Origin: Sulfurimonas sp. HSL1-2
Lineage (GTDB): Bacteria; Campylobacterota; Campylobacteria; Campylobacterales; Sulfurimonadaceae
NCBI RefSeq assembly: GCF_039645565.1
Contig: NZ_CP147914.1
Coordinates: 803,573-867,572, forward strand
Reading direction: 5' to 3'
Length of the DNA stretch: 64,000 bases
Below the pieces are notes generated by a model. That model had not been told where the DNA came from and did no database searches. It saw nothing but the letters and a program-made list of their open reading frames with translations. This document shows, piece after piece, positions 10,300 through 14,186 of this stretch (the stretch's first letter is position 1; each line of letters opens with the position of its first letter). Position numbers and translations under genes: made by a program.

Positions 10300-10527
10300 C
10301 TACTTCCCTCTGCTTTCAAATCTCGTGAGAGTGTCGCTGAGATATTTCCGTATCTCCTTTAACGACTCATGCGCCTGGACATATTTTTCTCTTATTTCCG
10401 GTTCATCAAAATAAAAATCGTCGCGATCGTACGTTCCGATCTGTTTGAGGTTTTCAAAAGCCATATCGATGTGCTGAATGCGCTGTTCGATGCTTCTGAT
10501 CAGTATCTTTTGATGATGTTGTGACAT
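10300..10527 (-). CDS. Small hypothetical helical protein (75 aa)
   Basis: Not recognised. The protein is hydrophilic with a high helical propensity (IRSIEQRIQHIDMAFENL and ESLKEIRKYLSDTLTRF), has no signal peptide, membrane segment or cysteine, and could form a short coiled coil. ATG at 10527 is preceded by AAGGAAAA at good spacing, supporting a real gene. It lies just downstream of the OXA cassette in the same direction and could be the chromosomal flank of the integron or a last degraded cassette; no attC is found on either side of it. Confidence 0.55.
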   Translation of the reverse strand: MSQHHQKILIRSIEQRIQHIDMAFENLKQIGTYDRDDFYFDEPEIREKYVQAHESLKEIRKYLSDTLTRFESRGK

Positions 10528-10685
10528 TAATTTTCCTTGTTTGGGTTGACTCTTTTAGGCTGTTCGACTGCATATTCGGCATGATGATTCTTCAGCGCTA
10601 TAGAGTCTATATGCATGATCCGCTCTTTTGCTTTTACTCATCTCTTTTCGTCATAGAACACGTGAAATGAGTAACTGGGAAACCA

Positions 10686-11492
10686 TTATATCAGGCCCAG
10701 AAGTTTCAAACTCGCTTTTGCCAGTTTGACGCGCTCCTTTGCATCAGAGGGTTTTTTGATGTCAATATTCAGGGCAAACACGTAAAAGTGCCCTTTTTTC
10801 TCCAGCCATCCCACCAGCCAGCCGACGCCGTTGTTCGGAGCGTTCTGCCATCCGGTTTTACCGTAGAGCTTCCAGTCTGCCCCCTCTTCGAGCAAGAGGA
10901 TCTCCCGCACGCTTTCTTGCACCTGTTTCGGAAGCGGCAGTCTGTTCTGAACGAGTCCGGTAAGGAACTCCACCTGTTCGAGTGCGCTGATCTTGAGCGG
11001 CCCGTCGAGCCAGAATCTGTCAACAACTTTTCCCGTCTCCTCGTTGCCGTAATGGAGTTTGACGAGGCCGGCACGCATACGTTCAAGACCGATGCGCCGT
11101 GCAAGTTCCTGGTAGATCGGTACGTTGGAGATGGCGATGGCCCTGCACAACCCCATATCATGTCCCCACTCCGGAATAAAAGGCTTGGCTGGGCCTTTGT
11201 AGGGCAGGGGCTCATCCACGCTTTTGACGACACCCGACGAGAGCCCGATGAGCGCGTTGGCAATTTTAAAAGTCGATGCGGGGATATAGCGTGTTTCAGT
11301 GCGGGTTTGGTTGTATCCAATGAACGCATTCCCAGTCATATCGTAGAGTATGAACGTTCCGTCGACATTCGCATTGTGAAAGAGCTCGGCAATCTTGGCA
11401 TTTTCTTCCCAGCCGAAACCTACCGTCGGAAAGAGCAGAAGGGCTACTATGATGAGCCTGAATCTTTTCCTACGTACGGGGTGCATGTACAT
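10686..11492 (-). CDS. Class D (OXA-type) beta-lactamase, integron cassette gene
   Basis: Serine beta-lactamase hydrolysing penicillin-type drugs in the periplasm. The 268-residue protein has a signal peptide (cleavage near residue 27) and every class D motif: STFK at 73-76 (acylated Ser73, carboxylatable Lys76), SNV at 122-124, YGN at 148-150, WLDG at 161-164 and KTG at 212-214, followed by GWLVGW. All catalytic residues are intact, so the enzyme should be active; spectrum cannot be predicted. Start codon 11492 lies only 10 bases from the attC core, with AAAGGT as ribosome-binding site, as usual for cassette genes. It is the last cassette of the array and has no attC of its own. Confidence 0.95.
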   Translation of the reverse strand: MYMHPVRRKRFRLIIVALLLFPTVGFGWEENAKIAELFHNANVDGTFILYDMTGNAFIGYNQTRTETRYIPASTFKIANALIGLSSGVVKSVDEPLPYKGPAKPFIPEWGHDMGLCRAIAISNVPIYQELARRIGLERMRAGLVKLHYGNEETGKVVDRFWLDGPLKISALEQVEFLTGLVQNRLPLPKQVQESVREILLLEEGADWKLYGKTGWQNAPNNGVGWLVGWLEKKGHFYVFALNIDIKKPSDAKERVKLAKASLKLLGLI

Positions 11493-11501
11493 TTATGTGA
11501 C

Positions 11502-11571
11502 CTTTAACGTTTAAAATGAGCAATCAAAAAGCAACCCGCGGGTTTTTGATTGGTCCCCTGTTTTGTTAGGT
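11502..11571 (-). other. attC site 1 (between LysE and OXA cassette genes)
   Basis: Read on the minus strand, the 70-bp site begins with ACCTAAC (matches RYYYAAC) and ends with GTTAAAG (GTTRRRY except the last base). Inside are perfect 10-bp inverted repeats CAATCAAAAA / TTTTTGATTG (11521-11530 and 11543-11552) around a GC-rich tip. The stop codon of the LysE gene (TAA, 11568-11566) lies inside the core, a typical cassette feature. The site is strikingly similar to attC site 2. Confidence 0.88.
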
Positions 11572-12168
11572 TCTATAAAGCAATAGAGACCCTGTGCCGA
11601 TCATTACACTCCCGGCAATTTCATTCATCTGCTTTTGCGTCCGTTCGTTTTTGAAAAGTTGTCTCGCACGGGATGCCGAATAGGCATAAAACGACATGAC
11701 CGCACCCAGAATGGAAGAGACGATAAAGGCTATGGAGAAAACATCCAAACTGCTCAGTGCATTCAAGTCTACAAATGTGGGTAGAAATCCCAGATAGAAC
11801 AAGATGACCTTTGGATTGCCGAGCGTTATGGAGAGGCCGCTTAAAAAGCGGTGCTTTTTTGAAGCGGTGATTTCCATTTTTTCCGGATGCGACCGCCACA
11901 ATTTAATCCCCAGCCAAATCAGGTACCCCGCGCCCAGATACTTGATAATAAGAAACATTGTTTCAAATGTTTCTGAGATGGCCGCAAGACCGAAAATCGC
12001 GAACAGAAGAAATATCAAATCACCCGTAACAATCCCTGCGATAACAGGCAACGTATTTCTGAATCCCGAAGCCAAAGCTTTGGATACGGTAATAAACACT
12101 CCGGGCCCCGGTGTCACGGCTAAAACAAACATGGCGGCAGATAAACCTGCAATACTGTAAAAAGTCAT
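11566..12168 (-). CDS. LysE/RhtB family amino-acid exporter, cassette gene
   Basis: A 200-residue inner-membrane protein of the LysE/RhtB superfamily with about six hydrophobic segments. The N-terminal family signature is present: VTPGPGVFITVSKALASG near residues 18-35 and a GLSITLGNPKVILFYLGF block near residues 110-127. Members export amino acids or their derivatives such as homoserine lactone or threonine. Its ATG overlaps the TGA of the cupin gene (ATGA), so the two are translationally coupled and form a two-gene cassette. Its TAA stop lies within the attC core. Confidence 0.88.
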   Translation of the reverse strand: MTFYSIAGLSAAMFVLAVTPGPGVFITVSKALASGFRNTLPVIAGIVTGDLIFLLFAIFGLAAISETFETMFLIIKYLGAGYLIWLGIKLWRSHPEKMEITASKKHRFLSGLSITLGNPKVILFYLGFLPTFVDLNALSSLDVFSIAFIVSSILGAVMSFYAYSASRARQLFKNERTQKQMNEIAGSVMIGTGSLLLYRT

Positions 12169-12527
12169 GGTTCTACTCTAATTTGTGGTACATTTTCTCG
12201 ATCACCATGGCTTGGTGGTGTGGATACCACTAAAAATTCCAAATCTTTTTCATGTTCATTGCTCAAGGTGTGTGCAATACCGGCAGGAATATGAAAGCCT
12301 TCATGCGGATGGAGGATGTGTATTTCGCCTGCCACTTCAAGCGTTGCAATACCGGAAAGAACGTAGAAGAATTGTTCCGCCTTCTTATGAAAGTGGCGAG
12401 TCTCACAGGAACCTTTGGGCACGCGTTCCTGAATCACGCTTAGGTTTTTAGAAGCAGCAAGGTGCCAACCTTCGCAGTTGGTAGCCCATACATAATGATC
12501 AGCATTTTTTACAGAAACGATTGGCAT
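12165..12527 (-). CDS. Cupin-domain protein, cassette gene
   Basis: A 120-residue single-domain cupin. Motif 1 is visible as the CETRHFHKKAEQFFYVLSG segment (HxH-like pair and Glu, near residues 40-58) and motif 2 as HPHEGFHIPAGIAHTL (near residues 73-88). His residues in both suggest a metal centre. Small cupins of this type bind sugars, amino-acid derivatives or act as isomerases/oxygenases; the substrate is unknown. Coupling to a LysE-type exporter hints at modification or sensing of an exported amine or amino acid. ATG at 12527 has GGGAG upstream and is 13 bases from the attC 2 core. Confidence 0.85.
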   Translation of the reverse strand: MPIVSVKNADHYVWATNCEGWHLAASKNLSVIQERVPKGSCETRHFHKKAEQFFYVLSGIATLEVAGEIHILHPHEGFHIPAGIAHTLSNEHEKDLEFLVVSTPPSHGDRENVPQIRVEP

Positions 12528-12540
12528 TTGATACTCCCAT

Positions 12541-12611
12541 GTCTAACGTTTAAAATGACAATCAAAAAGCCGCTCGCGGGTTTTTGATTGGTCTCCACTG
12601 ATTTGTTATGC
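12541..12611 (-). other. attC site 2 (between the membrane-protein and cupin/LysE cassettes)
   Basis: Read on the minus strand, the 71-bp site begins with GCATAAC and ends with GTTAGAC (a perfect GTTRRRY). It contains the same perfect 10-bp inverted repeats as attC 1 (12559-12568 and 12581-12590) around a CCGC-GA-GCGG tip. The GCATAAC core is the exact complement of the GTTATGC core at 13092-13086, as expected for the two ends of one circularised cassette. Inferred cassette 1 extent: 12547-13091. Confidence 0.9.
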
Positions 12612-12614
12612 ATC

Positions 12615-13067
12615 TTATTCAAAGGTGACGTATTTATTTTTTACCAAATATTCTAACGACGATAAGTTCTTTACTTTTGTTGTCAGTTCTGGAACTCTCG
12701 CGCAAATTCCCCATCCTTCTTTTGGTTTGAGAATTTTATCTTCTGAGTATTCATGATATCCGGATTGTGAAATATCTGTGCTAAAACCGGGTTTGAAAAC
12801 AGCTATATCCCATTCGACCTTTGTAACAACACTATCGCTAGCATTGCCAATAATTATATGAAGCGGATAAGGTTCCTTACATTCATCCGGTGAAAATTTA
12901 ATTATCACTGCTACTTTTTCTATTTCCTTTTCTTTTGTCCAATCTTGATAATAGAAATACGCTCCCAAAACTGCCACAATTGCTACTACAACTCCTGAGA
13001 GAATAAGCATCTTCCTAGTAAAGTATATAAATAATGCCAAAACTATTGCTGCAGCAACCCATTCCAC
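12615..13067 (-). CDS. Hypothetical small membrane-anchored protein, cassette gene
   Basis: Not recognised. The 150-residue product has two adjacent N-terminal hydrophobic segments (about residues 3-15 and 21-40). A soluble domain with beta-rich character follows, with CKEPYPLHIIIGNAS and EGWGICARVP segments containing two cysteines. This looks like a membrane-anchored domain of the kind common among integron cassette products. The start is a GTG at 13067 preceded by AAAGGAAT; the TAA stop is 4 bases from the attC core. Base composition is clearly AT-rich compared with flanking chromosomal genes. Confidence 0.7.
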   Translation of the reverse strand: MEWVAAAIVLALFIYFTRKMLILSGVVVAIVAVLGAYFYYQDWTKEKEIEKVAVIIKFSPDECKEPYPLHIIIGNASDSVVTKVEWDIAVFKPGFSTDISQSGYHEYSEDKILKPKEGWGICARVPELTTKVKNLSSLEYLVKNKYVTFE

Positions 13068-13085
13068 TGTTTATTCCTTTTTTAT

Positions 13086-13092
13086 GCATAAC
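13086..13092 (-). other. Integron attachment core (attI-side) GTTATGC
   Basis: On the minus strand GTTATGC marks the proximal boundary of the first cassette, between the cassette gene and the intI remnant. It is complementary to the GCATAAC core that opens attC 2, the pairing expected between the two ends of one cassette. The rest of an attI site cannot be recognised by eye because attI sequences are not conserved. Confidence 0.6.
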
Positions 13093-13112
13093 TATTTATT
13101 CATTTCCAAAAT

Positions 13113-13315
13113 ATGTCATATTGCTTGAATATCGATAGATACCTGGAAACGAAGAGTGTCCTAGTGTCAGCTAAATAATCGCAATATTAAACAAATTGAA
13201 ATATATCTGTTAATACTACGCTTTTTTTCTTAAAGCTGCAGAGACGTATATAATCTACACGCACGACGTGGTGGAGCTGAACAAGGAGAGCATCAAAAGC
13301 CCGCTGGACTTTTGA
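13113..13315 (+). pseudogene. intI: Integron integrase (intI) remnant with large internal deletion
   Basis: Both ends of an IntI-like tyrosine recombinase can be read. From the ATG at 13113 the plus strand encodes about 21 residues including IDRYLETKSV, similar to the FxRYLExK opening of many IntI proteins, before a stop at 13176. In a different frame, 13238-13315 encodes AETYIIYTHDVVEL...KSPLDF-stop, which matches the extreme C-terminus of IntI: the catalytic Tyr context xIYTH, then a gap and SPLD. The intact gene would be nearly 1 kb, so most of it, including the Arg-His-Arg residues and the IntI-specific insertion, is gone. The C-terminal match is strong; the N-terminal one is suggestive. 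The orientation, divergent from the cassettes, is canonical. Confidence 0.75.
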
Positions 13316-13328
13316 AATAGGAGGGAAG

Positions 13329-14186
13329 CTAGGAAGGCAGCACGTCTTGCGAACCGTTCGGGACTTTCTCTGTGGCGCTTTTTGCGGCAGATACGCTTTC
13401 GTGGTGCGCTTCGACTTCGACCGTCTTGCGGAACATGGAGTGCGTGAGGACGATGACGTTGAACACCGGGGTGATGTAGGCGGCGAAGGGGACCAGCGAG
13501 AGCAGGTAGAGCCCCAGCGTCGTCATCCTCACCTGCCCGCCGTGGAAGGCCATGATGAGCTTGAAGCGCTCCTTGGTCGTCGTTTCCGAGGCGACGTCGA
13601 GCAGGTAGAGCTTGTGGAACAGGTAGTAAAAGGGGAGATTGAAGGCCACGAGGTTCAGCAGCGGGACAAAATAGAAGGGCGTCAGCACCAAAAAGAGCAG
13701 AAGCATGATGAACACATGCTTCAGCGAGGCCAGGATGATGCCCGCGATGGAACCGTGGTGCTCCAGCGGCAGGTGGCTGTAGTGGCGCCGGTGTATCTCT
13801 TTGACGATGTAGGGGGTAAGGAAGCCGATGATGATCAGCGCGATGAACATGGCAAAGATGAATGTGATAAACCCGCCGACGGTAAAGACGATGAAGCTGA
13901 CCAGCCAAGAGGTGACGGTATGCTCCATCAAGAAGCGCAGGATGGCCGAGCCCCCTTCGACCGTCGTCGTTTCGTGCTGCGTCTCGACCACGCCGTTCTG
14001 CTGTGTCTGCTGGTGCTGCTCTATCTGAAGCGTACTCTCGCGCAGCGAGTCGATGCCAGCGTCGGCAATGCCGAAAAAGAGCGTGTACATGAGCAGGATG
14101 GTACCCAGGAAGGGGATCAGCGCGAACTGGAGCATCCGTTTGGAAAAGAAGTCGCGGATGCTGATGGAGAGGAGTGTTTCGTTCAC
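13329..14186 (-). CDS. EI24/CysZ-like multi-pass membrane protein
   Basis: A 285-residue inner-membrane protein with four to six long hydrophobic segments. The arrangement and the ALxxxxxxxPxxYFxPLLN...FNLPFYYLFHKLYLLD region resemble the EI24 (etoposide-induced 2.4) domain family, which includes the sulfate permease-like CysZ. Whether this one moves sulfate is not shown. The C-terminal 30 residues are hydrophilic. Its ATG overlaps the TGA of the upstream ytfJ-like gene (ATGA, 14183-14186), so the two are coupled. It ends 14 bases beyond the intI remnant, so the integron inserted immediately downstream of it. Confidence 0.7.
   Translation of the reverse strand: MNETLLSISIRDFFSKRMLQFALIPFLGTILLMYTLFFGIADAGIDSLRESTLQIEQHQQTQQNGVVETQHETTTVEGGSAILRFLMEHTVTSWLVSFIVFTVGGFITFIFAMFIALIIIGFLTPYIVKEIHRRHYSHLPLEHHGSIAGIILASLKHVFIMLLLFLVLTPFYFVPLLNLVAFNLPFYYLFHKLYLLDVASETTTKERFKLIMAFHGGQVRMTTLGLYLLSLVPFAAYITPVFNVIVLTHSMFRKTVEVEAHHESVSAAKSATEKVPNGSQDVLPS

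Follow-up and report, generated by a model that had tools for sequence, protein, structure and literature searches.

Evidence for a decayed resident integron that has lost its integrase gene in Sulfurimonas sp. HSL1-2

In a stretch of 64,000 nucleotides from the chromosome of Sulfurimonas sp. HSL1-2 (contig NZ_CP147914.1; hereafter the window), gene cassettes lie next to a short open reading frame that ends like an integron integrase. This raises the question whether the cassettes belong to a resident integron that has decayed, or came to lie at this position without an integrase of their own. We are highly confident that the locus is a sedentary chromosomal integron which lost intI in a deletion of some 1 kb and in which attI, a probable cassette promoter (Pc) and two cassettes were left behind. 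It is thus a CALIN (cluster of attC sites lacking an integron-integrase) that has kept attI. An earlier note on this DNA had proposed a decayed resident integron in the order intI-attI-cassettes, and this proposal is strongly supported by the intI relic, the attI site, the attC sites and the intact IntI of G007, a related genome. Four single-contig genomes of the genus were compared, namely that of the window (G000), G001, G006 and G007. All four carry integron remains at two loci about 120 kb apart, locus A, which is the one in the window, and locus B.

The integrase relic lies on the + strand at 13232-13315 and comprises the last 27 codons of intI and the stop codon. Read directly in frame from 13232, it translates to KAAETYIIYTHDVVELNKESIKSPLDF followed by the stop. 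With a profile built from Campylobacterota IntIs and all filters off, the relic was the sole match among the 1830 six-frame segments of the window (E = 6.5e-7), and it covers profile positions 293-319 of 319. In a tblastn search with the G007 IntI as query, the same 27 amino acids were found at 78% identity (E = 7e-7), and at the DNA level 13241-13313 and the 3' end of G007 intI share 82% identity. The codon for the presumed catalytic tyrosine, in the motif IYTH, would be 13256-13258 and thus within the relic. NCBIfam and Pfam searches with relic fragments of 25-33 amino acids gave no match, because such a fragment is too short for these general libraries; their silence reflects length, not absence. 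The IntI C-terminus that had been suspected beside the cassettes, and for which a search against IntI profiles had been suggested, is therefore confirmed by the profile match, the tblastn match and the DNA identity.

Next to the relic, the attI site extends over 13086-13175 on the - strand, with the core GTTATGC at 13086-13092, where it had been noticed before. The core fits GTTRRRY except for the T at position 5. In the orientation of the cassettes, the leader terminates in ...AATAAATAG, and TTATGC follows. Five attI copies (locus A of G000, loci A and B of G006, locus B of G007 and of G001) share ...AATAG/TTA and then each run into a different first cassette, so that homology among them ends at G/TTA. 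With the relic on the + strand, the cassettes on the - strand and the attI core adjoining the first cassette, the layout is the divergent one of an integron. The part of the leader nearest the former intI, a block of 59 bp at 13176-13234, is identical at 59 of 59 positions in G000 locus A, G007 locus B and G006 locus B, while the neighbouring attI part is 77-79% identical among the same three copies (Fisher p = 3e-5 for G000 versus G007, sites treated as independent). On the cassette strand this block contains TTAACA (13213-13208), a spacer of 18 nt and TAATAT (13189-13184), a sigma-70-like match at 9 of 12 positions that reads into the cassettes and is a match to the consensus only. Direct reading of the equivalent bases of G001 gives TTGAAA-18-TAAAAT, which is still promoter-like. 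The block is therefore probably Pc. Its conservation in an array without integrase makes the question whether Pc is kept for cassette expression directly testable. This attI-type leader, over 145 bp, was also observed, at about 70% identity, in two draft genomes of another genus of the family (g6; L076 and L077); in neither was intI found within about 1.5 kb beside the leader, and in L077 a strong attC lies about 1.3 kb from it.

An intact reference for the deleted gene is provided by G007, which encodes an IntI of 321 amino acids beginning MSKKKLL (TIGR02249, 420.6 bits; curated cut-off 265 bits). Positions 13089-13234 of the window align at 88% identity with the leader preceding this gene, and the match in G007 ends about 130 bp before the intI start. 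The deletion junction is placed at 13234/13235; position 13234 aligns to G007:973252 and position 13241 to G007:974256, and relative to G007 about 997 bp are absent, from the remainder of the leader through intI codon ~294. Judged from this alignment, the deletion of about 1 kb would have taken approximately 92% of intI (294 of 321 codons), not about three quarters as formerly estimated. This length is deduced from a paralogue, as the intact G007 copy sits at locus B and not at locus A. The expectation that a relative would hold an intact intI between the two ends was thus borne out for the gene, with the same leader and C-terminus, but not for the position. G007 locus B and the window have in common the attI core, the 59-bp promoter block, the attC type and the IntI C-terminus; they differ in that the former has the full integrase at another chromosomal site about 120 kb away, whereas the latter has the relic only.

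Two cassettes follow attI on the - strand. Cassette 1 (12547-13091) consists of a membrane-protein ORF of unknown function (12615-13067) and its own attC (12541-12611), which scores 91.7 bits with the covariance model R1 (E = 3.3e-18). It starts with TTATGC after the G of attI, and its 5' GTTATGC and the R'' GCATAAC of its attC are exact reverse complements. Exact complementarity of this kind is a hallmark of a circular cassette. Cassette 2 (11508-12546) encodes a cupin (12165-12527; Pfam Cupin_2) and a LysE-family exporter (11566-12168; Pfam LysE) and ends in an attC at 11502-11571 (R1, 83.1 bits, E = 2.2e-16); here the corresponding pair GTTAGAC/ACCTAAC has two mismatches. Both sites belong to the R1 training alignment and their scores are inflated by this, and the type is also found in other genera. 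They show RYYYAAC...GTTRRRY-like ends, an imperfect inverted repeat and R'' complementarity, with outer end bases that deviate in several sites, and are similar from cassette to cassette. The array is short, and with two attC sites and a mere intI relic it corresponds to a CALIN, the definition of which requires two or more attC sites spaced no more than 4 kb apart and no intI nearby. Cassette 2 recurs in G006 at 94%. Relatives of its cupin-exporter pair, at about 70%, were also seen at locus B of G007 and G001, i.e., at different loci in different species. Beyond cassette 2, an array-linked tail on the - strand (10300-11507) holds a class D beta-lactamase gene (10686-11492) and an ORF of 75 amino acids (10300-10527). 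The beta-lactamase scores 274.8 bits with NF012161 (cut-off 250), and the motifs STFK, YGN and KTG are visible. The R1 search with filters off found no further attC downstream, and the pair of genes also occurs at G006 locus A (94.6%). The beta-lactamase gene may be an old cassette stripped of its attC. It is a side observation of this study that a class D beta-lactamase gene is tied to an array in a free-living bacterium.

Locus A adjoins a gene of the CysZ/EI24 family (13329-14186), and this gene and an ICMT-family gene are its neighbours in all four genomes. The conserved chromosomal site and the alike attC sites indicate a sedentary chromosomal integron. At locus A, intI is broken in all four genomes, and at locus B it is intact in G007 only. 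The window has kept attI and the 27 codons at locus A. In G006, attI is kept at this locus and the intI start MSKKKLLDF... is fused to GHKSVETRMIYTH...SPLDF and a stop over an 8-bp direct repeat, TGCTCGGG, which is present in the intact G007 gene. In G001 and G007, attI is gone from locus A and of intI the last ~29 nt remain. At locus B, G006 still has the leader plus a few bases of the intI 3' end, G001 the leader plus the first codons, and the window's genome five attC sites, with both attI and intI absent there. Several close relatives thus appear, from these sequences, to have lost intI through deletions with other endpoints. The comparison of G001 with G007 at locus B is one clear case of independent loss; the total number depends on the species tree, and the deletions at locus A may represent successive erosion of one older loss. 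The two leaders of G006 (A, 843163-843396; B, 966228-966462) are 93.6% alike, whereas the A leader of G006 and that of the window reach 84%, beside flanks at 95%. Gene conversion between the two G006 integrons is a possible explanation.

Is cassette exchange at locus A a matter of the past? It could be argued that attI and the attC sites are still served in trans by an integrase located elsewhere, at locus B or on a plasmid, and that the loss of intI in cis was of no consequence. The attC sites of loci A and B are indeed nearly identical (up to 97%). The first cassette at attI of locus A differs between the window and G006, at the G/TT cores, and between G001 and G007 the cassettes located between two common ones at locus A differ, with boundaries at attC sites. 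However, the complete chromosome of the window is devoid of any IntI and its locus B has neither attI nor intI, and homologous recombination could also exchange cassettes bounded by attC, or attI together with the first cassette. For G006, a recombinational transfer from locus B to locus A is possible, since the similarity of its two leaders (93.6%) is unusually high next to that between its A leader and the one in the window (84%). For the cassette differences between G001 and G007, IntI in trans from locus B and homologous recombination between similar attC sites both fit. We therefore regard continued activity as rather unlikely. An equally tentative extension to the genus would be that intI loss is recurrent and tolerated, that selection maintains the attI-Pc leader as a platform for expression, and that arrays without an integrase continue to exchange cassettes by IntI acting in trans, from the second locus or from other cells. 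If so, the two-locus design would keep the recombinase apart from most of its cassettes.

A complete integron would include an intact intI (TIGR02249); 27 codons are left here, and no IntI above the cut-off was found in the complete genome of the window. As trans sources of IntI, the recombinases of this genome were rejected: they are of the Xer or phage type, and the best one reaches 58.8 bits against the cut-off of 265 and leaves profile positions 179-258 unmatched. Genome-wide, about 17 attC sites occur at 7 loci. Other sites or clusters on the chromosome (C1) were observed at 507 kb, 933-937 kb, 1185 kb, 1361-1364 kb, 1440 kb and 1686 kb, without an integrase. Such scattered sites could suggest that the array in the window never had an integrase either, that its cassettes were inserted off target in trans, and that the SPLDF peptide is a coincidence or stems from another tyrosine recombinase; neither the attI leader nor the intI 3' end has a match at the five further attC loci besides A and B. 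Yet locus A carries both, G006 retains the leader and both ends of intI at this position, the profile match is unique in the window, and none of the Xer-type proteins of the genome ends in SPLDF, so that this explanation is very improbable. The earlier reading that both halves of intI survive with an N-terminus at 13113 is even less probable and in effect refuted: a short open frame does begin with ATG there, but its peptide scores -2.3 bits against the Campylobacterota IntI profile, and its DNA is homologous to the non-coding attI/promoter leader that ends well before the start of intact intI, whose protein begins MSKKKLLDLAREQIRLRHYS. As only one of the two pieces is coding, the frame difference once seen between them is moot.

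An integron origin with subsequent loss of intI thus follows from the relic, the attI core, the attC sites (E <= 2.2e-16), the lack of an IntI elsewhere in the genome and the copies in relatives, which are either intact or broken in another way. When the integron was complete, its intI would have been transcribed away from the array, IntI would have inserted circular cassettes at the G/TT core of the attI site, and the cassettes would have been expressed from Pc in the leader. Pc presumably still transcribes the retained cassettes, and the array itself would now be changeable only by an IntI from outside or by homologous recombination.

Integrons had been called little documented in Campylobacterota. 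This holds for focused papers, as we found no focused study on integrons in Sulfurimonas, Sulfurovum or Campylobacterota; the phylum is, however, already named among integron carriers in a review (PMC8618304), and integrons are not rare in the family, since IntI above the curated cut-off occurs in 62 of 200 genomes (34 of 397 in the class). R1-type attC sites were detected in 51 of the 200 family genomes, of which 31 lack an IntI match at E <= 1e-40, a cross-count that includes many drafts and uses a genus-biased attC model. In a quick tree, 51 named Epsilonproteobacteria IntIs fall on one side of a branch with moderate support (89), adjoining IntIs of the Marinicella/Alcanivoracaceae type. 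Free-living Campylobacterota possess their own, widespread integrase lineage, for which no dedicated study was found in the literature searched.

Formation of CALINs through intI loss is one listed mechanism (PMC8618304, after Cury et al.), and the window locus resembles these elements as an attC array whose integrase was deleted. It differs in that attI and the promoter leader are retained along with 27 codons of intI, so that its origin is directly readable, and in the presence of two such loci per genome. Chromosomal integron loss was described in Treponema (PMC3607928), where attC sites likewise persist after intI is lost; there, intI reads towards attI, whereas that of the window reads away from it, as in the classical inverted layout, and attI has been kept. 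In Xanthomonas, intI of sedentary chromosomal integrons has been inactivated repeatedly (PMC12444791), and the ancestral fixed locus, the lineage-specific intI deletion and the kept cassettes are alike. Here another phylum and two loci are involved, and intI is intact at one of eight loci in the four single-contig genomes. Integrase loss is already accepted as a source of CALINs, and the window locus is an unusually legible further case: across both loci of the four close genomes, intI is seen whole, with an internal deletion or nearly erased, and these stages show step by step how a CALIN originates.
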